From assembly GCA_029866005.1 (NCBI GenBank), contig JARXAE010000003.1, positions 62,001-126,000 of the forward strand: 64,000 bases of DNA, given 5' to 3'. Below are positions 3,706 through 55,100 of the stretch, one piece after another. The first letter of the stretch is position 1. The number at the start of each line of letters is the position of its first letter. Origin of the DNA: Fimbriimonas sp. (GTDB taxonomy: Bacteria; Armatimonadota; Fimbriimonadia; Fimbriimonadales; Fimbriimonadaceae). A model generated the notes under the pieces. The model was not told the DNA's origin. It was given only the letters and a program-made list of their open reading frames with translations, and did not search any database. The position numbers and the translations under genes were made by a program.

Positions 3706-5202
3706 TTAGTTGCGCTTGCGTCTTAGCAATCCGACGAGGCCGAGACCGAGGACAGCCATGGTGGCGGGTTCGGGGACAGCAACGATTCCGCTGAGATTGA
3801 CCGTTCGCATCTGTCCGGTGGCGGTGTCGGTGATCTGGAGGATCGCGTTTCGGATTCCGGTGGTGCTGGTGTCCATCCTGATCATCCTTGCGATGGAACT
3901 TCCGGCGGCTACCGTTCCTCCGCTGGGAAGGGTGAATCCGGTGCCGGAGAGCGAGAGCGAGAAGGTCGAACTTTGGACTCCGTTTGCACCGAAAAGCGCG
4001 GTGTTAACGGCATTACTGATGTTGACGCTCTGTTGAGCAACGTCACCGAGGAGAGCGGTACCGAAGTTGAGTGACGCTTCGGCTACCTTCAGGTCAGCCG
4101 GAACTTTGACATCGAGGAAGATTGGGAGGTGACCGCCGGTGACGGTGGGACCCGTGTTACCGATCGAATCCTTTATCGCGTTTGCGATGGTGGTTCCAAC
4201 CATTTGGTTGTTGGTAAGCGTCATTGTTCCGCCGACTGACTGCTGACCATCATTTCCCCAAACACGGTAGCTGTGGTTTGGGTCGTTCCAAGTTGGACCG
4301 TAGGCGGCAGTTGCAGACCCGACGTACTCAAGACCCTTTCCATCCCGAAGGGTTTGACCGAAGAGGATGAAGTCCATTCGGTCGTCCATTCCACCTGATC
4401 CGTAGGGATCTTGGGTGTGTAGGTGGCGATAGGCGTTGTTGTCTTGCCAGGTGATCGCAGCTCCTCCGGATGTGAAGGAGCTGTTGATAGGATCAAAGAA
4501 TCGACCACCGGTCACGGTTTGACCCGAATTGTTAGTAATCGACGCATCGGTGAGCTGTTTCATTCCGAGGTCACTTGACCGGCTGACGTTGAAGTCGCCC
4601 CCAATCAGAATATGACGACCATTGCTCGACTGGATCGCGGAATCGGTTCGAATGTTTCGAGTTTCGGTTCGGCGTCGCTGGGCGTCTTCCCCATTGGGAT
4701 CGGTTCCTGCCTTGAGGTGTGACGAATAAAGTGAGACGAGCGGGTTGGTGGTGCTTCCGGCGTCGTAGCCCTTCAGTTTAAAATCGTAACGCTGGGTGTC
4801 GCGCGGGTCTCCTGCGATGTTGGCGAGGCCAGTGTAGTCGATTTTGTTGGTCCGGTAATAGAAGACGGTGTCGGAGTCTCCGACGTCCGAGAACGGATTC
4901 ATCGCCCATTGACCGCTTTGACCAGGAGCAGAGTTCAGCATGTTCAGAAATGCGGTTGCTCCTGCAGAACCGTTGATTTCTTGAGCGATCAAGATATCCG
5001 GGTTCATCGAGCGACCTTCGAAGGAACCAAAAATGGCGGTCCTAAATGCGTTCTGACGAACGGTTGAAGCGGTCGATCCGAAATTGGTGACGTTCCAAGT
5101 TGCTACGCGAAGCTGACCAAACCCAAGCGACGAGATGGCGCTGATTGTGATTAGGCTGATGACGCGATGCCGGACGGAGATGCCAAAGCTAACAAAATGC
5201 AT
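3706..5202 (-). CDS. PEP-CTERM endonuclease/exonuclease/phosphatase-like protein
   Basis: Exported protein of 498 residues from the start chosen here. An N-terminal signal segment (VISLITISAISSLGFG) is followed by LRVATWNVTNFG, the opening strand of the endonuclease/exonuclease/phosphatase fold. Further fold motifs are LIAQEING (metal-binding Glu), SSHLKAG, IGGDFNVSRSSD and DRMDFILFG. The C-terminus has VPEPATMAVLGLGLVGLL followed by RRKR, a PEP-CTERM sorting signal processed by exosortase in diderms (family knowledge). A beta-sandwich-like stretch lies between the nuclease domain and the signal. Divergent from the TauE gene. An ATG at 5244 would add 14 residues and break up the signal peptide, so 5202 is preferred. 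The substrate is unknown; extracellular DNA or phosphoesters are possible. Confidence 0.85.
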   Translation of the reverse strand: MHFVSFGISVRHRVISLITISAISSLGFGQLRVATWNVTNFGSTASTVRQNAFRTAIFGSFEGRSMNPDILIAQEINGSAGATAFLNMLNSAPGQSGQWAMNPFSDVGDSDTVFYYRTNKIDYTGLANIAGDPRDTQRYDFKLKGYDAGSTTNPLVSLYSSHLKAGTDPNGEDAQRRRTETRNIRTDSAIQSSNGRHILIGGDFNVSRSSDLGMKQLTDASITNNSGQTVTGGRFFDPINSSFTSGGAAITWQDNNAYRHLHTQDPYGSGGMDDRMDFILFGQTLRDGKGLEYVGSATAAYGPTWNDPNHSYRVWGNDGQQSVGGTMTLTNNQMVGTTIANAIKDSIGNTGPTVTGGHLPIFLDVKVPADLKVAEASLNFGTALLGDVAQQSVNISNAVNTALFGANGVQSSTFSLSLSGTGFTLPSGGTVAAGSSIARMIRMDTSTTGIRNAILQITDTATGQMRTVNLSGIVAVPEPATMAVLGLGLVGLLRRKRN

Positions 5203-37597: not shown

Positions 37598-39712
37598 ATG
37601 CTGAAATACGACACGATCAAATCGCTCGACACTGAATATGTCGCGCCGACCTATAACCGACAACCTGCCCTGTTCGTCCAGGGTTCTGGAGCAATCCTTT
37701 GGGACAACCGAGGGAACGAGTACCTTGACTTCCTGGCCGGCATCGCCGTCAATAGTCTTGGACATTGCCACCCCGCCATCGTCACCGCGATCACCCGACA
37801 AGCCCAACAGCTGATTCATACATCCAACGTTCTCCTGACTGCACCTCAAGCTCAGCTCGCCGAGAAACTCTGCCGCTTGTCCGGGATGGATAAAGTGTTT
37901 TTCACTCCGTGCGGAGCGACGGCGAATGAGACGGGTCTGAAGATAGCGAAGAAGCACGGTAACAGCAAGCGGCCTGATGGCGACTACGAGATCATTACTC
38001 TTCATAAGTCGTTTCACGGTCGCACCATCGGCGCGATTTCCGCGACTGGACAACGCCGATATCAACGCCCATTTGAACCTTTGATGCCCGGGATTCGCCA
38101 TATCGAGGCCAATAATCTCGATGAACTTCGCGAAGCATGCAGCCACAAAACCGCCGCGATATTGCTTGAGCCGATCATGGGTGAAGGTGGAGTATTAGCC
38201 CTTACTACTGAGTTTCTTGTGGAGGCAGAACGTCTTTGCCGGGAGTACGACGCCTTGCTCATGCTTGATGAAGTGCAAAGCGGGGTTGGTCGAACTGGAG
38301 CTTGGTTCTGCTTCCAGCATCACGGCATCCGCCCGGATGTGATGCTTCTGGCGAAGGGACTTGGCGGCGGACAACCGATTGGCGCATGCCTCATGGCCGG
38401 AAAAGCGGCGACCGTTCTCGAAGCAGGTGATCACGGGACCACTTTTGGAGGCTCACCCATCTCGGCGGCCTGTGCTCTGGCGGTCATCGACACCCTTGAG
38501 CACACGGACATCATGGAGCAGGTGAAGATCACCGGCAAGCTCCTAAGCGAGGGACTGAAGCAGCTCAAGGGAGTTTCCGAGACGACCGGAATGGGGCTGA
38601 TGATCGGTGCGAAACTTGAAAAACCGATCGCCCGCGATGTCGTGCGAGAGGCTTTCGATAAAAAGCTGATCATCAACGCCACCGACGAGCACACCCTTCG
38701 ATTTGTCCCGCCACTGATCATCACTCCGGAGCAGGTTCAGCAGTGCCTCAGCGTTGTCGCCGAAGTTCTCGGGGTCGAAGCTCCCAAACCCGTTTCGATT
38801 GGCACGACGAGCCGGGTTACGCGAAAGCCCTATGGCGATCTGCTTTCCATCGACGATCTGATGGACTCTCAGATCGACGATGTTCTTGATCTCGCTTCCT
38901 ATTTGAAGCAACGCCGGAAGCTTGCGCCATCGGCGATCACCCCAGTGGAGGGACGCAGCGTCGCCATGGTCTTCGAAAAGTCTTCGCTTCGCACGCGAGT
39001 ATCGTTCGAAACAGCGCTCTATGAACTGGGTGCTCATCCGATCTATCTCACTAAAGCAGACATAGGAATCGGTAGTCGCGAGGCGATGAAAGACGTTGCG
39101 CAGAATCTCAGCCGTTGGTGCACGATGGTCGTTGCCCGACTGTACTGGCAGAAGGATCTTCAAGTGCTTGCTGATAACAGTGATGTTCCAGTGATCAACG
39201 CCCTTACCGAATGGGAGCACCCCTGTCAGGCCCTTGCCGACATGCTGACAATTAAGGAGAAGTTTGGTGATGAGAAGGTGAAGATCACCTACGTCGGCGA
39301 CGCGAACAACGTCTCTCGCTCATTGGCTAAGCTTGCAACTCGAATGGGATATCCCGTCACGATCTGTGGTCCTGAGAACTTCCGGCTCGATCCACTTCCG
39401 GGTCTCCATCAAACGGCATCCATCGAAGAAGGTTTGACCGACGCAAAGGTTGTCTACACCGATGTCTGGGTCTCGATGGGCGATGAACACGAGCAGGAGC
39501 ACCGGATGAAGATCTTCCAGCCCTACCAGGTGAACGAACGTGTGATGGCAATCGCCGATTCTAACGCGATCTTCCTCCACTGTTTGCCGGCTCGGCGAGG
39601 ACTCGAGGTGACGGATGGCGTGATGGATTCGGTTCAGAGTTGCGTCAACGACCAAGCCGAAAACCGTCTCCATGCCCAGAAGGCGCTTCTCCAGAGAGTG
39701 CTAGGATTATAG
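37598..39712 (+). CDS. fused acetylornithine aminotransferase and ornithine carbamoyltransferase (ArgD-ArgF)
   Basis: One open frame of 704 residues. Residues 1-395 are an ArgD-type PLP aminotransferase: GAILWDNRGNEYLDFLAGIA, FHGRTIGA, LLMLDEVQSGVGRTG and LLAKGLGGGQPIGA with the PLP lysine K253. After a linker (about 395-415), residues 416-704 are an ornithine carbamoyltransferase: carbamoyl-phosphate loop SLRTR at 463-467, HPCQ at 541-544, DVWVSMGDE at 622-630, HCLPA at 661-665. Both sets of key residues are intact, so both reactions should work: N-acetylornithine formation, then ornithine to citrulline. They are not consecutive steps, since deacetylation lies between. mtnA follows after one base. 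Confidence 0.95.
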   Translation: MLKYDTIKSLDTEYVAPTYNRQPALFVQGSGAILWDNRGNEYLDFLAGIAVNSLGHCHPAIVTAITRQAQQLIHTSNVLLTAPQAQLAEKLCRLSGMDKVFFTPCGATANETGLKIAKKHGNSKRPDGDYEIITLHKSFHGRTIGAISATGQRRYQRPFEPLMPGIRHIEANNLDELREACSHKTAAILLEPIMGEGGVLALTTEFLVEAERLCREYDALLMLDEVQSGVGRTGAWFCFQHHGIRPDVMLLAKGLGGGQPIGACLMAGKAATVLEAGDHGTTFGGSPISAACALAVIDTLEHTDIMEQVKITGKLLSEGLKQLKGVSETTGMGLMIGAKLEKPIARDVVREAFDKKLIINATDEHTLRFVPPLIITPEQVQQCLSVVAEVLGVEAPKPVSIGTTSRVTRKPYGDLLSIDDLMDSQIDDVLDLASYLKQRRKLAPSAITPVEGRSVAMVFEKSSLRTRVSFETALYELGAHPIYLTKADIGIGSREAMKDVAQNLSRWCTMVVARLYWQKDLQVLADNSDVPVINALTEWEHPCQALADMLTIKEKFGDEKVKITYVGDANNVSRSLAKLATRMGYPVTICGPENFRLDPLPGLHQTASIEEGLTDAKVVYTDVWVSMGDEHEQEHRMKIFQPYQVNERVMAIADSNAIFLHCLPARRGLEVTDGVMDSVQSCVNDQAENRLHAQKALLQRVLGL

Positions 39713-46292: not shown

Positions 46293-46368
46293 GGCTCCGT
46301 AGCTCAGGGGATAGAGCGCCTCCGTCCTAAGGAGGGCGTCGGGGGTTCGAGTCCCTCCGGGGCCGCCA
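46293..46368 (+). tRNA. tRNA-Arg (anticodon CCT)
   Basis: 76 bases, complete cloverleaf. Acceptor stem GGCTCCG/CGGGGCC (one T-G pair), D-arm GCTC...GAGC, anticodon stem CCTCC/GGAGG with loop GTCCTAA giving anticodon CCT (reads AGG). T-arm GGGGG/CCCTC with loop TTCGAGT, discriminator G, CCA encoded. CATAAT stands 12 bases upstream. The 3' part, 46329-46366, is duplicated at 51023-51060, so this tRNA is the attachment site of an integrated element. Confidence 0.96.
46329..46366 (+). repeat. attachment site, tRNA side (38-bp direct repeat)
   Basis: The anticodon-stem 3' side through the acceptor stem of tRNA-Arg is repeated without mismatch at 51023-51060. It contains the T-arm, a common crossover site of tyrosine recombinases. 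The element lies downstream of the tRNA, which stays intact. Confidence 0.9.
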
Positions 46369-46453: not shown

Positions 46454-46951
46454 ATGCGAGATTTGACGCTCATCAAGCGATGTTTGATTCTTCTAGCACT
46501 GGTTTGGGCTCAGATTCCTGCCAGTGTGCTCGCAGTGGCCCACCAATCGACGCCTGCTTGCAACATGACTTGTTGCGCGGTTAAGGTGATCCAGCCAAAA
46601 GTTCAAGAGGAGCCGGCATGCAAAAAGTGCCCTTCCGAGAACGTGGCAAACGCGTCGTACTCGAGCGATCGACCTGAAACTGCTATTTCTGCTCATTCCG
46701 GTAAGGACTCCTGTCGGTGTAAGATCGCGCCTCGTTCTTCACCCGGGGAGCATTCAAATACGCCTTGTCTCACAAGTTCTGGCGTTACCGATCAGACCTT
46801 CGATGCTAGTCTGGCTCACACAAGATTGCGGTTTGACGTAGCTGCTTTGATGGTTGCCAGCCCGGGGATCGTTGGAACTGATTCTGGTCCGCCGACTCAC
46901 CGGCCAAGTTGTGTCTGGCTCGGCCGTGCTCCTCCTGTTCACGTTGCTTAA
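46454..46951 (+). CDS. exported cysteine-rich protein of unknown function (island)
   Basis: 165 residues. The N-terminal hydrophobic segment (CLILLALVWAQIPASVLAVA) is a signal peptide. The rest is polar with cysteine pairs CNMTCC, CKKC and CRC, then an ending with PPTHRPSCVWLGRAPPVHV. Short exported proteins of this build often precede periplasmic copper-resistance genes (general pattern, not a named family). It is 71 bases ahead of the four-gene operon. Metal binding is inferred from the cysteines. The frame could be a weakly conserved leader, so confidence is moderate. Confidence 0.6.
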   Translation: MRDLTLIKRCLILLALVWAQIPASVLAVAHQSTPACNMTCCAVKVIQPKVQEEPACKKCPSENVANASYSSDRPETAISAHSGKDSCRCKIAPRSSPGEHSNTPCLTSSGVTDQTFDASLAHTRLRFDVAALMVASPGIVGTDSGPPTHRPSCVWLGRAPPVHVA

Positions 46952-47022
46952 CTTCGCTGTGCTCACTCTTCGGGCCAGTCACTTTGCGCTCCGGCGCACT
47001 TTGCAACAAATAGGAATTACAC

Positions 47023-48243
47023 ATGTTATCAACTATCGCGATCACAGCGGTTCTGCTCGGACAGGCGTCATCTCTCGCGCGCCTTTCCGTAGGTGGACCG
47101 ACCGTATTCACCACAAAATCCTTCGGGTTCAGCCTGGAGAGTCTGATTACTCAGAAGACCAAGGTTACGTTTGGCAAATATCAAGCCGAGCTTCGAATTC
47201 CTGAAGGAGGGTTGTTCGCCGGTGAGGAACTCGATGTCGAGTTTCGAGTCACGGATACAACTCAAAGAGATGCTGTTGAGGAGGGATTCAAAGGCGTTGG
47301 TGCGATCGAAGCAACCGCAGTGATGACCATGCCCAGCATGATGGGCATGCCCGAGGTCAGACCAAAGGTGCACCGCGAAGGAGTGCCAGGCGACTATGGA
47401 ATGGAGTTGTACTTTCCGCATGGCGGCGATTACAAGATCGACCTCGCGCTGAACATTCCGGGCGAGGGCACTAAGAACATCGCGTTTGTCGTGGATGTGA
47501 AGGATGAAAAGCCGGCGACCGCAAGTAAAGTTCAGCCTTACAAGCTCAAAGTGGTTGAGTGGCCCAAGAAGGCACAATCCGGAGTTACGACGACTCTTAA
47601 ACTCCAAGTCGTCGACACAAAAACTGGAGCGATTCAGAAGTCGTTTGACGAGGCGCATACGAAGTACTTCCACTTGCTGATTGCGAGTAAGGATCTCAAT
47701 TGGTTCGTTCATGAGCATCCGGTCATGGATGCCAACGGTACTTGGTCTGTGCCGATCAAGTTTCCCGCGGGGACTGACTATTGGGTGTACGGCGATGTCG
47801 CCCCTACCGGCAAGGGTTCAAGGGTTCTGATCAGCTCGGTCAAAGTTCTAGGAGCCAAACCGTCCTGGAACACCAAGTTGATTCTGTCGAAAGCAGGCAC
47901 TGATGGAGGCCTCAAAGGACTCATCTCAACCCTAGAGCCGATCGAGATTGGCCGGAGGGCGACGATCCAGGTCAAGCTTTTCGACACCAAAACGGGTATG
48001 CCAGCGGGAGATACGGTTAAGTGGCTTGGCGCAGCCGGACACATGATGATCTTCCACAAGGATGGTCAAACCGTTGTCCACAGCCACCCCGCTGAGGACG
48101 CTGAAAATGAGGCGCTCGTCAAAAAGGGCATCGTTCGCTTTAGCGGTCGGTTCCCGAAGGCAGGCAAGTACAAGGTGTACGCCCAGTTTGATTGGAATGG
48201 GAAAGTCCGAACGCTTCCGTTTGCTATCGAGGTCAAGAAATGA
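47023..48243 (+). CDS. secreted three-domain protein with YtkA/FixH-like and HEHP-type segments (island operon gene 1)
   Basis: 406 residues. A signal peptide (ML STIAITAVLLGQASS) is followed by three beta-sandwich-like parts. The first (about 45-165) has MTMPSMMGMPEV and PGDYGMELYFPHGGDYKIDL, the wording of YtkA/FixH-like periplasmic domains. The second (about 175-285) has YFHLLIASKDLNWFVHEHPV and GTDYWVYGDVAP. The third (about 290-406) has AAGHMMIFHKDGQTVVHSHP and FPKAGKYKVYAQFDWNG. The two His-x-His-Pro loops and Met-rich strand suit copper binding outside the cytoplasm. The stop overlaps the next ATG (ATGA). Confidence 0.75.
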   Translation: MLSTIAITAVLLGQASSLARLSVGGPTVFTTKSFGFSLESLITQKTKVTFGKYQAELRIPEGGLFAGEELDVEFRVTDTTQRDAVEEGFKGVGAIEATAVMTMPSMMGMPEVRPKVHREGVPGDYGMELYFPHGGDYKIDLALNIPGEGTKNIAFVVDVKDEKPATASKVQPYKLKVVEWPKKAQSGVTTTLKLQVVDTKTGAIQKSFDEAHTKYFHLLIASKDLNWFVHEHPVMDANGTWSVPIKFPAGTDYWVYGDVAPTGKGSRVLISSVKVLGAKPSWNTKLILSKAGTDGGLKGLISTLEPIEIGRRATIQVKLFDTKTGMPAGDTVKWLGAAGHMMIFHKDGQTVVHSHPAEDAENEALVKKGIVRFSGRFPKAGKYKVYAQFDWNGKVRTLPFAIEVKK

Positions 48244-48704
48244 AACGAATCCTTATCGCCTTGCTCCTGCTTGTCTCCGCTTTTGCATTCTCGCATGAGG
48301 GGGATTGCCCATACTGCAAGATGCCACTGGTCCAAAACTCGAAGGATCAGGACAACGAGGTTGTGGTCAAGTTTGGCAACAAACGGATCGAGTACCGATG
48401 CATCTACTGCGTGATTAAGGATCAAAAGCGCTACAAGAGCGACCTGATCGTCTATGCGCCAAGCGAGAAAGTTGGTGAGCCGGTTGTGCTGAAACGCACA
48501 GCCGGAAAGTGGTCGGCTCCCGAAGGGGCGATCTTCCTGAACACTTTCAAGAAGCACTCTGAGTGCGCCGAACTCTCAAGGGCGTTCAGCTCAAGGTCGG
48601 CGTTTGACAAGTATGTTGCCGACAAGAAAGTGGTCGATGCCAAGCCGCTCACGTTGACCGAGTTTATTGATGTGGTGATGAAGCCGGTTGGAACTGATAA
48701 ATGA
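48240..48704 (+). CDS. NosL-like exported protein (island operon gene 2)
   Basis: 154 residues with a signal peptide (ILIALLLLVSAFAFS). DCPYCKM is a C-x2-C-x-M motif as in NosL copper chaperones, and YRCIYCVIKDQKRYK supplies a second Cys pair. The end FKKHSECAELSRAFSSRSAF, then a helix, is shared with the next gene's C-terminus. NosL proteins deliver Cu(I) to nitrous oxide reductase, but no nos gene is here, so the client must differ. The start at 48240 is chosen because it overlaps the previous stop by four bases and opens the signal peptide. Confidence 0.75.
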   Translation: MKRILIALLLLVSAFAFSHEGDCPYCKMPLVQNSKDQDNEVVVKFGNKRIEYRCIYCVIKDQKRYKSDLIVYAPSEKVGEPVVLKRTAGKWSAPEGAIFLNTFKKHSECAELSRAFSSRSAFDKYVADKKVVDAKPLTLTEFIDVVMKPVGTDK

Positions 48705-50200
48705 GCGTCCTTGCTTTGATTCTGGGTGCAAGCATGCTCAGAGAGGATTCGACCCGGCTCCAGTCGGCGATGCCAAAGGTGCCCGAAAATCTCCCCCGGT
48801 GGCTCAATAGCCGGGGAGCAGACCACTTGTTTTACAAGGCTGCTCCTTACAACTGGGCGATCAATCGGATCCCCGCATTTGCCCAAGACATGTATGCCAC
48901 CGGCGTGGGTCATGCCATGGCATACGAGGCTCTGGTCACCGGGAAAAAGGGAGAACTCGAAAGCAAGACTTTTGCGACGATTGACTATGTGCTGAAGAAT
49001 CCTCCCTCCAAACCGATCGATGAAGCGGCAGTCTCACCGCGATTTGTTCAGAAGTATGGCTACCTAGAGAAAGTGTTTGACTGGGCTCATACCCTCCACT
49101 TCCAGACAATTGATGTTTTCACCCACCCCGGCTGGAGCGATGCCCAGAAGGAAGCCGAGATCGAGCGGCTGTGGACGTTTTACTCAGCCGAACCCTACGC
49201 CATTTCTGGTCTTCCGATGAACATGGAGTACCTCGACAGCTTCCCGTATAGCGGAGCGTTTCGCCAGAACTACCCGAAGGTCAATGGTCTCTTCTGGGGA
49301 TATCACTGGCTGCAGACCGTGAACTACGACATGCTTTTTCGAGTTCCGACTGCCGACCAACGGCCCCAGTACAGCCTTATCGGACAACGGTATCACGAGA
49401 ACGAACTCTACAAAACGGATCGTGACTTCATGCCAATGACCGCGGAAATGAGTCCGCGATTTGCGCGACGCTTTCCGCAGATTGCAAATGCCTTTGACAA
49501 CCTGCACATGCTTCACGACAATGTGAACGACATTCTCGCGCAAAGCAACCTTTCTGAAGCTGACAAGGCGACGCAAGTCAAAGTTGCGATCTATCGAGTT
49601 TTGGCTTCCACCCATAAGGGTGAGGAACCCGGCGAGGGAGAGGAAAAAACCCTTCACGACCATCGATTCCCTGACGGCATGCCGGGAATGGGAATGATGA
49701 TTGGCAGCGATGAGAACACCATGTACATGTCCGGAATGGGATGGATGGACATGAGCGAGTGTGCGCACTGTTCGATTTCACTTCCCGAAGAGGGTCCATG
49801 GGGTGCGACTGTTTCGGCCGAAGGGTGGACGATGACAGTGCGCTGCATAATGTGCGCGAGGGATATGGCAGCCGAGACTCCGGGCCGTGCAATCATTCGC
49901 GCGGCAACCGAAGATGAGAATCGACTCTTGGTGATGATCTCGGATGAGGAAGGAAACTGGAGCTCGAATATCAAGGGAATCGTGTTCTTAGAGGTCTTTG
50001 GCGAGCACCCGAACTGCTCGGTGTGGTCGAGGGCATTTACGTCTCGATCTGCATTCGAAAAGTTTGTTGGCACAGTTCCGGAGCTGAAGGGAGCGAAAGC
50101 CCTTAGCCTAGAAGAATGGTCAAAGCTTAACCATGCAACTCCGGACACCTATACAAAGATTGATCGGCCAAATCCTTACCGTAAGGGCGGTGCAAAGTGA
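48701..50200 (+). CDS. large Met/His/Cys-rich protein with NosL-like C-terminus (island operon gene 3)
   Basis: 499 residues. The N-terminal 330 residues belong to no family I recognise: LPRWLNSRGADHLFYKAAPY, VFDWAHTLHFQTIDVFTHPG, and several His in helices. A Met/His segment follows (HDHRFPDGMPGMGMMIG, then MYMSGMGWMDMSECAHC). The C-terminal 150 residues repeat the plan of gene 2: ECAHC, RCIMCARDMAAETPGRA, then GEHPNCSVWSRAFTSRSAF. The cleavable signal is weak (SVLALILGASML), so it may be anchored or exported. The Met clusters and Cys pairs strongly suggest Cu(I) binding. Coupled to both neighbours by ATGA. Confidence 0.72.
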   Translation: MSVLALILGASMLREDSTRLQSAMPKVPENLPRWLNSRGADHLFYKAAPYNWAINRIPAFAQDMYATGVGHAMAYEALVTGKKGELESKTFATIDYVLKNPPSKPIDEAAVSPRFVQKYGYLEKVFDWAHTLHFQTIDVFTHPGWSDAQKEAEIERLWTFYSAEPYAISGLPMNMEYLDSFPYSGAFRQNYPKVNGLFWGYHWLQTVNYDMLFRVPTADQRPQYSLIGQRYHENELYKTDRDFMPMTAEMSPRFARRFPQIANAFDNLHMLHDNVNDILAQSNLSEADKATQVKVAIYRVLASTHKGEEPGEGEEKTLHDHRFPDGMPGMGMMIGSDENTMYMSGMGWMDMSECAHCSISLPEEGPWGATVSAEGWTMTVRCIMCARDMAAETPGRAIIRAATEDENRLLVMISDEEGNWSSNIKGIVFLEVFGEHPNCSVWSRAFTSRSAFEKFVGTVPELKGAKALSLEEWSKLNHATPDTYTKIDRPNPYRKGGAK

Positions 50201-50964
50201 AATACACCGCAGTAGTAACCGTTGCCGGCATCCTTTGCGTTCAGTTGGCATCAGGCAGTGATCACAATAACATCGACAAGGAGCGGCCACTTCGGTTCGA
50301 TGATGCCTACTCGATTGCCTATCGATCTTTTGAGTTTCAGAGCGGCTTTCGGCTTGACACTTTCAACCGCAATAAACCGGTTTACAACTTCAGATCTGAA
50401 CTCCAATATGGGTTTGCGAAGAACAAGGACTTCTCGATTGGGCTCGAACCGTTTATCAGCAGCGAGAGTGGGAAGCTCATCGGAAACATCTTAGAATTGA
50501 GTTACTTTGAAGGTGTCTCAAGGGAGATTGGCAACAACCCAGCGTTCGGGTATCGGATCGACGCGGGGATTCCAATCTCGGGTGGAACTGGGACTGAGTT
50601 TCGAGTGCGAGGCATTCTGACCAAAACCCTGGGGCACTACGACAAGATTCACTTAAACATCGATCATTACAACTCAACGTCCACGGCGATCGGTCAGCGG
50701 TCGATGCGGATGGGCGCGATTCTTGGCTACTCAAATCCCATCGGTTACCCCAAGGCATTCGACCAGACTCTGCTGGCAGAGCTTGGAATCGAGCAAGGGT
50801 TGGCAACCGGATCGGGATACAACACTTGGGTTGGATTAGGACTCAGGCGGCAAGTCTCAGCAACGGCCGTTCTCGATGTTGGACTCCAGTTTGATCTGCG
50901 ACGCACGGAGCCAGAACCGAGATCTCCTGTCCGGCTAACGGTGGGATACTCGACAAGCTTCTGA
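50197..50964 (+). CDS. outer-membrane beta-barrel-like protein (island operon gene 4)
   Basis: 255 residues with a signal peptide (YTAVVTVAGILCVQLASG). About twelve alternating strands can be seen, for example YNFRSELQYGFAKNKDFSIG and NTWVGLGLRRQVSATAVLDV. It ends RLTVGYSTSF with a terminal Phe, as outer-membrane barrels do. It could be the outer-membrane exit or docking part of the system. The ATG overlaps the preceding stop by four bases; a weak terminator follows at 50977-51002. Confidence 0.72.
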   Translation: MKYTAVVTVAGILCVQLASGSDHNNIDKERPLRFDDAYSIAYRSFEFQSGFRLDTFNRNKPVYNFRSELQYGFAKNKDFSIGLEPFISSESGKLIGNILELSYFEGVSREIGNNPAFGYRIDAGIPISGGTGTEFRVRGILTKTLGHYDKIHLNIDHYNSTSTAIGQRSMRMGAILGYSNPIGYPKAFDQTLLAELGIEQGLATGSGYNTWVGLGLRRQVSATAVLDVGLQFDLRRTEPEPRSPVRLTVGYSTSF

Positions 50965-51002: not shown

Positions 51003-51022
51003 AATCTGCTTTATTCAGTCCG

Positions 51023-51060
51023 AAGGAGGGCGTCGGGGGTTCGAGTCCCTCCGGGGCCGC
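51023..51060 (+). repeat. attachment site, far side (38-bp direct repeat)
   Basis: Exact copy of 46329-46366, the 3' part of tRNA-Arg(CCT). The bases before it (GTCCG against GTCCT in the tRNA) match four of five and then diverge. It lacks the 5' half, so it is not a working tRNA. It ends one base short of the encoded CA of the tRNA 3' end. Confidence 0.9.
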
Positions 51061-51062
51061 AC

Positions 51063-51290
51063 TTAAAACAAGCTGAAATTGAGCACATCCTAAAGGCGAT
51101 TGGCAAACCTCGAACACTCATAGAACTCCGCAATGCTCTCATCTTCCACACAGCCCTCGATACAGGTCTCCGATTATCCGAGTTGGCCGATTTGGAGCGT
51201 AAAGACTTAGATCTTCCCAGACTTATCGTTCGACGCGGAAAAATGGGCCAGTCCGGACAAACAAATGATTGGCGGATAACAAAAAATTAG
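51063..51290 (+). pseudogene. remnant of a tyrosine recombinase (phage-type integrase)
   Basis: The frame from 51063 to TAG 51288-51290 reads LKQAEIEHILKAIGK, then RNALIFHTALDTGLRLSELA and DLERKDLDLPRLIVRRGKMG. DTGLRLSEL is the first catalytic Arg box of tyrosine recombinases. The N-terminal DNA-binding domain and the later His-x-x-Arg and Tyr boxes are missing, so it is inactive. It begins within three bases of the right attachment repeat, the normal place for an integrase gene of a tRNA-directed element. It belongs to DNA right of that repeat. It fills most of the 328-bp gap 50965-51292; nothing else is seen there. Confidence 0.85.
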
Positions 51291-52150: not shown

Positions 52151-53064
52151 AGAGTCTCCTGCTTTGCCGCCAGGCAATCGCGATAGAACTTCCAGTTATC
52201 CTCACCAAGCGCGGAGAGCAGGGCGATTGTATCGTGGCTCACTTTGGGTTTCGTCACGAAAGTGTGAGGCACGCCGAGCTTGGTCAGATGGGCGGAGAAG
52301 TCGCGGTTCGCCGGCAAGGTGAAGTCCTCTTCACCGATGCAGACTCGAATCGTAATTCCAGATTTGAGTGTCGAGGCGTTCTGCTTAGCAAGCATCCATG
52401 GACTTTGGGCTTTGAAGTTTTCTATTTCACCTCCAAAAACCGTGTTTAAGATTTGCTCGCGCCCGACCGGGTTCGCCATCGCCTTAGGGCCCTTGAGCTC
52501 CAAGTCCAGCGGTCCACCGGCCAGCATCGAGACACCGGCAAACACCTTCGGATACTTGAACCCAAAACGTCCGGCACCGTAGCCACCCATGCTGAATCCT
52601 TCGACAATCCGTCCTTCGCGCTTGGCGATCGTTCGGAACTTGGCATCGACTTCGGGAATCAACTCTTTGATGACAATGGTCTCGATCGGCTGTCTGCCAC
52701 CCTTCGAATCGCACCACATCCCATTGGCAAAGCTGTTCGGAAAGACGATGATCATCGGCGGGATCTTCCCAGCTTCAATCGCCGCATCGAAGAAGCCGCT
52801 GACCGGCCGAATTCCGGCCAATCCACCACCCGAACCATGGAGCCAGTAGAGCACAGGGAATCGCTTTGACTTTTCTTCCTCGTAGGCTTTCGGGAAGTAG
52901 ACATGGTAACTAACTCGCGCCTTTGCAGATCCACTTTGGAACGTGCGTTGTTCAACCCGAGCCGCCCGCGCGGCTGGCGTTACCCACTGAACTGTCGATT
53001 GTGTTTCAGAGCACCGGGGAGAAACCGATGTCGCAGCGAGCATCGCGAAGGCTATCGGGGTCAT
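52147..53064 (-). CDS. secreted esterase D-family hydrolase
   Basis: 305 residues from the ATG at 53064 (four-base overlap with the gene before). A short hydrophobic signal (TPIAFAMLAATSVSP) is present. The fold marks are VLYWLHGSGGGLAG, IIVFPNSFANGMWCDS, EGFSMGGYGAGRFGF with the nucleophile, and a late His in KPKVSHDTIALL. Different in sequence from the esterase at 40700. It forms a pair with the LpqC-type esterase, probably acting on plant- or polymer-derived esters outside the cytoplasm. Confidence 0.87.
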   Translation of the reverse strand: MTPIAFAMLAATSVSPRCSETQSTVQWVTPAARAARVEQRTFQSGSAKARVSYHVYFPKAYEEEKSKRFPVLYWLHGSGGGLAGIRPVSGFFDAAIEAGKIPPMIIVFPNSFANGMWCDSKGGRQPIETIVIKELIPEVDAKFRTIAKREGRIVEGFSMGGYGAGRFGFKYPKVFAGVSMLAGGPLDLELKGPKAMANPVGREQILNTVFGGEIENFKAQSPWMLAKQNASTLKSGITIRVCIGEEDFTLPANRDFSAHLTKLGVPHTFVTKPKVSHDTIALLSALGEDNWKFYRDCLAAKQETL

Positions 53065-55100
53065 TGACTCCGACCCCGACCTCCACCAAAGAGCTTTCGC
53101 ACCTCGTCCAGCGTGACTTTGCCATCCCCGTTGGTATCTCCATCTTTGATTCGATTCCACAGCACGCCCGCTTCATCTTGCGTGAGGAAGCCGTCGCTGT
53201 TTCGGTCCAGGCGTTTGAACGTGGTCTCGATCTGGGCACCCGCACCGCCTCCAGCACCGCCACCGACACCTCCGCCTCCGGGACCTCGCCGGAGACCTGC
53301 TCCGCCCTCGCCAGGTTTTTCACCGGGGATGATGTACTCGACGTAGCCGAGGTGCATCTCGTCAAACGTCTGGGCGCCCCAGCGGACCGTTTTGGACGGG
53401 TCAGGATTGGCGGGGTTCTTGTCGCTATTGTCATACCACGCGGTGAACTTCAAAGAGTCTCCTGCCTTGATGTTCAGGGGTGATTTCAGGACGTAGTTCA
53501 GCTGCCAGTTGAAGTCGTACCTGGGAACATCCAAGAGCGAGGTCGTCTGTCCGCCTGCAGTCAGTTCGTACTTAGCCGCCTTCGCCCGTACATGCATGTG
53601 AGGAAGGAAGGACAGCAGCTGAACATCGATAGGAACTTTCAGCTGCGCATCCACTTTGAAGTTAGGGTCTCCCGGAGGAATCGCGAATCGCAGGTTTACT
53701 AAGCTTGCCGTGTGAACCTCGCTCTTCGGTGGTTCCTTTGCAAAAACAAACCCAACCTTCGATAGATCCGTCGTTGCTTTCCCATAAGGGGTGTAGTGAA
53801 TCTGGAAGCGTAAAACGGCACCTTTCGGGATGCGCTTAGCGAGTCCTTTAGGATAAACGAGAGCGCTGTTTCCGGGCACGTAGATGCCAAAGAACCCACT
53901 GATTTCCTCAATGGCGTCTGCACCGACTAGTCTCTGTAGCCGACCCTCGTTTGCGCCCTGCGCGGACTTGACGAACACCAGGATATGGTGCACAGCTCGC
54001 TTGTCTCCGGGGAGAACTTCGATCTTTTCAACCCATTGGTCTTCAGTGAAGTTGGTGGGCACGTTGATGTTTGCGTACGGCATGACACCGCTTTCTTTGA
54101 CGTTTACTGGCTCGGGTAGTTCGAAACTCACATCCGGTTTGCCAATCGTCCACCCCGAGGCATAGGAGGTTGAAGCAGGCGCATCCTTTGCATCGCCCTT
54201 TGGCATTCCTCCGGCAATCCATGCATTCAGCGCAGCCTTATCCGCATCTGGCAAGGACATGTCGTTACGCCATGGGCCAGAGCCCTTCTTCGCAAACCAG
54301 GGCGGCATGATGCCCCCGTCCATAACGAACTCGAGCATTTTCGCCCTTGACTTCACGGCTTCATATCCATCCAGCGAGAACGGACCGACACCGCCAGGAC
54401 GGTGGCAGGGCATGCAACTTCGCTGAACGATGTGCTGAATCTTAGCGTGAAATGTCGGGATGTCCTCATTCGTCGCCATCGGGGCGTCGTTCAGCACACA
54501 ACCCGGCGCTGAGGTGGTTGAGACCTTAACCGGCTTACTGGCGAGTACGGCATCCAGTGCGTCTGCTAGGTAGCGGTTCTTGGGTTTGGGCAGAGCTGCA
54601 CCGATGGCGTACTGATCATCGATCGCGCCCCGATACAACACGTTTCCGTCCTGATCCAACACAAATGTTTCGGTTGTGGTCTTGGCTCCCAGCTTCAGGG
54701 TCCATGTACCTTTCGGGTCATGCACGTAGGGACCATTAAGACCAAGCTGCTTCACGAGCTGACTCATCTCTCCCCCAGATTCGGTTGTCGAAGGGTTCAC
54801 AAAGACAAACTTGACTCCCTTTTTGGAGTAGCTGTCTTCCAGGGCAGCAAGCGTCGGACCGAACTTCTGACATAGCGGGCACGTGACGCTGGAAAGAGCG
54901 ACCACCGTTGCCTTTGCCCCTGTTCCAGGCGCAGTGACTTTGTTACCGGAAAGGTCGACACCAGCAAGACCCGAAACTCGCTTTCCAATGCCTTTCGCGG
55001 ACAACGAAGTCGGAGCAGCTACTTTTGCGGGCGGCTCGGACTGAAAGCATGAAGAGCCAACAATGGCGAGAAGTGAGGCAGTGAGAAGAAGAGACTTCAT
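53061..55100 (-). CDS. redoxin - cytochrome-c-like - Cu monooxygenase-like - EF-hand fusion protein
   Basis: 679 residues, exported (signal SLLLTASLLAIVGSSC; the Cys may be lipidated though the box is not canonical). A thioredoxin-like domain at about 40-190 has TCPLCQKFGP (C74, C77). A single CMPCH haem-c motif is at 229-233, in the FSLDGYEAVKSRAKMLEF context. From about 320 a type II copper monooxygenase-like double beta sandwich follows, with HH at 371-372, FQIHYTPYG and LPHMHVRAKA as likely Cu ligands. A Gly-rich linker and two EF-hands (DRNSDGFLTQDE, DTNGDGKVTLDE) close the protein. The redoxin-monooxygenase-like part is known from planctomycete and acidobacterial genomes; the EF-hand addition is unusual. 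Confidence 0.8.
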   Translation of the reverse strand: MKSLLLTASLLAIVGSSCFQSEPPAKVAAPTSLSAKGIGKRVSGLAGVDLSGNKVTAPGTGAKATVVALSSVTCPLCQKFGPTLAALEDSYSKKGVKFVFVNPSTTESGGEMSQLVKQLGLNGPYVHDPKGTWTLKLGAKTTTETFVLDQDGNVLYRGAIDDQYAIGAALPKPKNRYLADALDAVLASKPVKVSTTSAPGCVLNDAPMATNEDIPTFHAKIQHIVQRSCMPCHRPGGVGPFSLDGYEAVKSRAKMLEFVMDGGIMPPWFAKKGSGPWRNDMSLPDADKAALNAWIAGGMPKGDAKDAPASTSYASGWTIGKPDVSFELPEPVNVKESGVMPYANINVPTNFTEDQWVEKIEVLPGDKRAVHHILVFVKSAQGANEGRLQRLVGADAIEEISGFFGIYVPGNSALVYPKGLAKRIPKGAVLRFQIHYTPYGKATTDLSKVGFVFAKEPPKSEVHTASLVNLRFAIPPGDPNFKVDAQLKVPIDVQLLSFLPHMHVRAKAAKYELTAGGQTTSLLDVPRYDFNWQLNYVLKSPLNIKAGDSLKFTAWYDNSDKNPANPDPSKTVRWGAQTFDEMHLGYVEYIIPGEKPGEGGAGLRRGPGGGGVGGGAGGGAGAQIETTFKRLDRNSDGFLTQDEAGVLWNRIKDGDTNGDGKVTLDEVRKLFGGGRGRSQ

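Follow-up and report, generated by a model that had tools for sequence, protein, structure and literature searches.

The locus described here lies in a window of 64,000 nucleotides (the whole stretch of DNA that was analysed) from Fimbriimonas sp. (assembly GCA_029866005.1, contig JARXAE010000003.1, positions 62,001 to 126,000 of the forward strand), and comprises five open reading frames (ORFs), called A to E, which were confirmed at 46454-50964, all on the forward strand (Table 1). A first-pass annotation, made from the letters alone, had proposed that B to E formed an island-borne operon of four coupled genes for extracytoplasmic, probably copper, handling, preceded by a Cys-rich exported protein. 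Exact ATGA overlaps had been reported at all three junctions, which held for B/C (at 48240) and C/D (at 48701), while the D/E overlap was GTGA (at 50197). The two His-x-His-Pro sites of B (HEHP and HSHP), the Met/His clusters of the 499-residue D (a Met/His-rich linker) and the barrel character of E (a terminal Phe, as in outer-membrane barrels) were borne out. The C-x2-C-x-M motif ascribed to C was present as CPYCKM, but its Met was not kept in the family, the conserved set being CxxC...CxxC...HxxC. The Cys-rich protein A had been passed over as an accessory; judged from its sequence and that of its relatives, it is probably a RAPP-type arrest leader that would control translation of B, and thereby of the genes behind it, by opening a hairpin.

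Table 1. Features of the operon, its island and related arrays (positions are those of the window unless another source is named).
Feature	Position	Strand	Remarks
tRNA-Arg(CCT)	46293-46368	+	Integration target of the island; ARAGORN
attL	46321-46366	+	3' end of the tRNA gene; 46-nt direct repeat
Gene A	46454-46951	+	165 aa, Cys-rich, signal-peptide-like; ends GRAPPVHVA; conserved CxMxCC, CxC, DSGPP, RAPP
R-A-P-P codons	46925-46936	+	CGT GCT CCT CCT; predicted arrest site; P site holds the first Pro, A site the second
Hairpin 5' arm	46933-46947	+	UCCUGUU 46933-46939, GUUGC 46943-46947
Hairpin 3' arm	47003-47015	+	GCAAC 47003-47007, AAUAGGA 47009-47015; contains Shine-Dalgarno of B, AGGA 47012-47015
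Gene B	47023-48243	+	406 aa, YtkA-type; HEHP and HSHP sites
Gene C	48240-48704	+	From ATG; 154 aa, exported MerB/NosL-type protein; CxxC...CxxC...HxxC
Gene D	48701-50200	+	499 aa, two domains
D helical domain	48779-49624	+	Residues 27-308
D linker	49625-49759	+	Met/His-rich; HDH...MPGMGMM...MYM.GMGWMDM
D C-terminal domain	49721-50140	+	MerB/NosL fold, homologous to gene C
Gene E	50197-50964	+	255 aa, predicted outer-membrane beta-barrel; DHNN at mature N-terminus; terminal Phe
attR	51015-51060	+	Copy of tRNA 3' end, 44/46 nt identical
Tyrosine recombinase remnant	51063-51290	+	Beyond attR; PF00589 residues 3-66, E 3.3e-7
Tandem tRNA-Arg(CCT)-end array	L073 4790-14169 (G091)
Tandem tRNA-Arg(CCT)-end array	G095:C2:49711-54537
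Tandem tRNA-Arg(CCT)-end array	G096:C19:54498-71494
Tandem tRNA-Arg(CCT)-end array	G150:C1:1648341-1716391

Aligned A proteins shared a constant end, DSxPP...GRAPP followed by four residues, and Cys-rich ORFs with a RAPP or RGPP end preceded B even at loci where A showed no detectable overall similarity. Peptides of the ApdA/ApdP type arrest the ribosome through RAPP, with RAP in the P site and the following Pro in the A site (PMC10951233, PMC10987492). With a strict script (RAPP or RGPP two to four residues from the end, at least five Cys, position directly upstream of a gene with a recognisable ribosome-binding site), leader and binding site were recovered at 28 of the 38 loci carrying the module of B to E, and a leader without a ribosome-binding site accepted by the script was present at four more (L011, L013, L057 and L059). 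At L003 the contig was cut, and in the Uphvl-Ar1 copy (L004, 6267-6900) a frame shift interrupted the leader ahead of RAPP, the remaining genes of the operon being open. Among 1878 ORFs from control stretches totalling 400 kb, a single one had such an end and was not Cys-rich; none with at least six Cys was found. Leaders were usually 127-185 residues long, with 60-71 residues (mostly 64-71) between CxC and RAPP; if the tunnel takes up about 30 residues and the membrane about 17, as assumed for CutF, this spacing would place CxC outside SecY, in the periplasm. Judged by eye, the leader has a charged start, a hydrophobic stretch and an A-x-A-like site, as a Sec signal peptide would. Compared with the copy of a sister species, A was 56% identical at the amino acid level and B to E 75-88% (C and D 88%), so that, outside its motifs, the leader appeared to be under little constraint. 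Further Cys-rich ORFs ending in RAPP were seen upstream of CusB-like efflux genes (L066, 4709-5317, and L012, 6713, both on the reverse strand), and this type of leader is thus used beyond the B to E module. A scan for sigma-70 promoters upstream of A, which is not informative for this phylum, found none.

The codons for the end of A also form one strand of the hairpin. UCCUGUU, which takes in the end of the first Pro codon together with the whole of the second and of the Val codon, pairs with AAUAGGA, the Shine-Dalgarno region of B, and GUUGC pairs with GCAAC. The hairpin of the window had an energy of -42 kcal/mol (z -2.0). Over 25 dereplicated loci, the duplex formed by a locus's own arms had an energy of -13.2 kcal/mol, against -8.96 (standard deviation 0.45) when arms were swapped between species, and none of 20,000 permutations reached the energy of the true pairing; this test was free of anchoring bias, since swapped arms were optimised identically. 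In 18 anchored arm pairs, 84% of cells were paired and 21 cells had changed on both sides, with a covariation of 0.300 compared with 0.098 for shuffled and at most 0.054 for slid arms, a comparison that favours structure because the duplex itself was used for anchoring. The second Pro codon was CCT at 17 of 19 loci, against a share of 17% among neighbouring Pro codons. A ribosome stopped at RAPP would hold the pairing bases in its decoding sites, so that the Shine-Dalgarno sequence would have to be free.

D was found in 45 of 291 genomes of the phylum, mostly at 50-88% identity, and the named relatives were all Armatimonadota, chiefly Fimbriimonadaceae. The order B-C-D-E on a single strand, whose presence in other genomes the first-pass annotation had left to be looked up, was kept at 23 of 23 named loci. 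Part of the loci had a longer B with YHS/TRASH domains and a DUF2231 gene between B and C, and B was relocated behind E at L057, L059 and L065. In many relatives the module adjoined a Trns_repr_metal (CsoR/RicR-like) repressor, a TIGR01511 copper ATPase, DUF305/CopM and a CusA-type pump with its partners; the ATPases carried a CPC motif and a GMTCASC domain. Counted over the 38 module loci, which are related to each other so that the counts are not independent, a CopA-type ATPase was present at 16, CsoR at 11 and CusA or CusB at 12, compared with 0, 0 and 1, respectively, in twenty random 20-kb stretches of the same genomes subjected to the same search. Relatives of the second half of B occurred on Hymenobacter plasmids beside heavy-metal ATPase, DUF305 and resistance-nodulation-division (RND) genes. 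Neither CopA nor CusA exceeded the family cut-off on the island or anywhere in the genome assembly it comes from (97% complete), which contained one P1B-like ATPase with an SPC motif; the earlier remark that such genes are missing therefore applies to this whole assembly but not to the relatives, where the module adjoins them. This context agrees with the extracytoplasmic and probably copper-related role first suggested, and it supports copper, with good confidence, as the metal of the operon. The genome also has COX2. Some 2 kb from the island, a reverse-strand gene (53061-55100) encodes a protein with redoxin, cytochrome-like, Cu2_monoox_C (PF03712) and EF-hand parts, probably another copper protein.

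The explanation that in our view fits best, and that we hold with moderate confidence, is that of an envelope operon which is mobile, responds to copper and carries its arrest sensor as the first gene. A would be translated and exported, and metal bound to its cysteines on the periplasmic side would make the ribosome pause at the C-terminal RAPP; with the RAPP codons forming the strand that hides the ribosome-binding site of B, the parked ribosome would free that site, and B would be translated, followed by C, D and E through stop/start coupling. The products would probably guard the periplasm or outer envelope against copper: B and C would bind the metal, D would carry it by way of its Met/His linker and its MerB/NosL-fold domain, and copper would be sequestered on, or exported through, the outer-membrane barrel E. 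This path through C, D and E is put forward as a proposal. The RAPP leader, the covarying hairpin, the kept gene order, the copper-gene surroundings and the folds come directly from the computations, and from them we infer the arrest, the identity of the metal, the switching on by copper and the metal path; what had been described as one machine moving Cu(I) across the outer envelope is thus retained as extracytoplasmic and probably concerned with copper, its movement of the metal belonging with what we infer.

Control of B by A probably follows the logic of CutF and CruR, to judge from the sequence features, with an unrelated leader, a longer spacing and different, poorly known effectors. As in CutF-CutO-CutG of Rhodobacter capsulatus (PMC9973294, PMC8456105), an exported leader with a Cys motif and a Pro-rich C-terminus precedes copper-related cargo across a short gap, with a hairpin hiding the Shine-Dalgarno sequence of the next gene. 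Unlike CutF, to which no sequence family link was detectable, the motif here is RAPP, the distance from CxC to it is 64-71 rather than 45 residues, the leader often exceeds the limit of 150 residues used in the CutF survey (PMC9973294, PMC8456105), and the cargo is YtkA-type, MerB/NosL-type, novel helical and barrel proteins instead of a multicopper oxidase. CruR of Bordetella pertussis (bp2923, DUF2946; PMC9426467) shares the near-C-terminal RAPP, the upstream Cys motif and the copper operon, but has a spacing of 45, a long gap and Rho-dependent termination, and there copper turns the genes off. SecM and the ApdA/ApdP/RQH-type peptides likewise control a downstream gene through a RAPP or RAGP arrest motif (PMC10951233, PMC10987492); they monitor Sec/YidC, whereas the present leader is rich in Cys and is followed by genes for metal proteins. 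That copper turns this operon on, and not off as with CruR, is suggested with moderate confidence by the CutF-like layout and the neighbouring efflux genes. Copper sensing by a nascent chain has been described in two proteobacterial cases, which respond in opposite directions and for neither of which direct arrest has been shown (PMC10987492); an independent, strongly covarying case in another phylum offers a natural test of how the direction of such a response depends on spacing and motif.

A number of points weigh against this interpretation. No leader was found at L019, L020, L021 and L061, and at L055, L056, L060 and L065, where C directly follows the leader, the pairing was weak or different. 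DUF2946, the CruR family, had no match up to E 1 in ten A proteins, and A matched no known leader family. When RAPP proteins were tested in E. coli and B. subtilis, the majority showed no stalling (PMC10987492), and the opposite sense of CruR, in which copper relieves the arrest, makes the direction of the response uncertain. All signal peptides, that of A included, were assigned by eye; the suggested role of E as a conduit was read from a barrel-like sequence; and the helical domain of D, folded alone with a predicted local distance difference test (pLDDT) score of 94, matched nothing better than seven-helix receptors at Z 4.4, which is background.

Of other explanations, the one with most in its favour, though we regard it as unlikely, is that the same leader-controlled operon serves copper acquisition or cuproenzyme assembly, the arrest occurring when copper is scarce and the products supplying oxidases or the monooxygenase-like protein. 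CruR provides a precedent in that the same RAPP motif turns on an uptake system at low copper, NosL and YtkA-type proteins deliver copper in other systems, and the genome of the window combines a lack of CopA and CusA above the cut-off with COX2 and the Cu2_monoox_C protein. Against this, the short gap, the Shine-Dalgarno hairpin and the Sec-type leader resemble CutF and not CruR, the relatives embed the module among CsoR, CopA, CopM and CusABC efflux genes, and the second such leader at L066 precedes CusB-like genes. Far less probable is that A is an ordinary periplasmic metal-binding protein, with a hairpin that merely attenuates translation and a RAPP kept for some other reason. Its many Cys and expected export would fit such a protein, but not the RAPP held at a fixed C-terminal place and a fixed distance from CxC, nor the covarying pairing of codons with the Shine-Dalgarno sequence, the synonymous bias to CCT and the fast evolution elsewhere. 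A simple metallothionein-like nature of A had also been considered and was dropped.

The effectors themselves combined recognisable and unfamiliar parts. Residues 97-141 of B matched the YtkA-like PF13115 (26.7 bits against a cut-off of 25.9). C was homologous to the end of D (hhalign 99.4%, E 1.9e-21), with CxxC, CxxC and HxxC aligned. Structure prediction of D, which had been suggested as a check, gave a model with pLDDT 87.8 in which residues ~343-481 matched MerB and NosL folds, while the helical domain had no clear match. The end of D reached Z 9-11.5 with MerB (best 3f0o, Z 11.5, root-mean-square deviation (rmsd) 3.4, 131 aligned), and D up to residue 479 reached Z 6.9 with NosL 7og7 (range ~6-7, rmsd 4.0, 114 aligned). 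PF03243 (MerB) was the best Pfam model for relatives of C, fitting 14 of 34, whereas PF05573 (NosL) had no match in the genome and fitted one of 34 members of the C family, at E 0.012. The description of C and the end of D as NosL-like hence applies to the fold (Z ~6-7) but not to the sequence family, for which the MerB model is the better fit. Profile searches with D, C and E against PDB sequences gave weak matches only (MerB2 for C, E 0.07), and D and E had no significant match in Pfam or NCBIfam. The C family reads A-x-A/H-E-x-D-C-P-Y-C at the expected signal cleavage site, which suggests that mature C would begin with a His that may coordinate metal. The C-terminal domain of D, to which C is homologous, shares its fold with NosL and MerB, but the pattern of Cys residues differs from theirs, and no NosZ or MerA context was seen.

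The MerB likeness raises the question of mercury, organomercury or another soft metal as the substrate, a reading that is the least probable of those weighed here: MerB was a better fold match than NosL to the end of D, the MerB model fitted many C proteins, and an invariant C-A-R-D after the second CxxC of D is reminiscent of MerB C96-x-x-D99, but MerA was absent above the cut-off from the genome and from the neighbour families examined, the neighbours in relatives are of copper type (CsoR/RicR-like, CPC ATPase with GMTCASC domain), and the first catalytic Cys of MerB aligns to C57 of C, a position that lacks a conserved Asp three residues further along. A role in denitrification was dropped, there being no NosL match.

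Across 33 sequences of D, including one from Methylobacterium at 24% identity, the helical domain had invariant H71, H130, H133, H202, H269, H272, E249, M175, M244 and Q135, a set that would look like a buried metal site. With the best Z, to seven-helix receptors, at background level, no fold was assigned to this domain, although a missing match does not make a fold new. E showed a weak link to Phenol_MetA_deg (PF13557 in 4 of 32 members, best 3.6e-7) and a conserved, barrel-like alignment. The helical domain occurred together with an E-like barrel, and without the MerB/NosL-type domain, on a Methylobacterium plasmid and a Gemmatirosa megaplasmid, and in G080 (L066, a 5.23-Mb genome) the MerB/NosL-type domain was fused to a different, barrel-like protein. 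In gene B, a lipobox was seen at L016, L017, L018 and L022 (VSAC, LSGC, VSGC and ITGC, respectively) and none in the window, so that anchoring varies. The module resembles Cus, Pco and Cop systems in its Met/His-rich periplasmic proteins and outer-membrane component, and in relatives through adjacent CopA, CsoR and CusABC, but contains none of the structural proteins of Cus or Pco, and E is a small barrel and not a TolC/CusC protein. A bolder possibility, which we consider doubtful, is that the helical half of D represents a new metal-site family paired with the E barrel, and the whole a new mobile, nascent-chain-switched copper route of the outer envelope that replaces the CopA/Cus pumps missing here. 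The analysis in any case names candidate genes, among them a helical family without a recognised fold, for a copper route that would do without CopA and Cus.

The island-borne nature of the operon was supported by its flanks: tRNA-Arg(CCT) on one side and a repeat of its 3' end on the other delimit an island of 4.7 kb, and beyond the repeat lies the tyrosine recombinase remnant; no repeat like attL/attR arose in 100 shuffles. A search for phage DNA gave no match. In the sister genome G091, the tRNA-Arg(CCT) 3' end forms an array of four copies in which one cassette is the module. At L010 a perfect 54-bp repeat flanks a version of the module that includes CsoR and CopA, and L156 is alike (35/36); as repeat-bounded copies exist with and without CsoR and CopA, the unit moves both with and without pump genes. 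These comparisons show that a cassette bounded by tRNA ends carries the unit from one species to another. A single copy of the tRNA-Arg(CCT) 3' end is located after the module at L004, L005 and L003, and the module or its CsoR and CopA genes lie near a tRNA-Ala gene at L007, L024 and L016. Ends of tRNA genes thus seem to serve as recurrent sites for this operon unit. A tRNA-Ala(CGC) gene was noted near the leader at L007 (6989-7064), L024 (5679-5754) and L153 (5336-5411), and at L016 the CsoR gene follows tRNA-Ala(GGC) (4503-4578). Same-orientation tandem segments bounded by tRNA-Arg(CCT) 3'-end copies were observed in several Fimbriimonadaceae; these arrays look like a recurrent integration hotspot resembling cassette arrays. 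Elsewhere in the window, a single forward-strand ORF (37598-39712) joins a class-III aminotransferase to an ornithine/aspartate carbamoyltransferase, both Pfam domains being complete.

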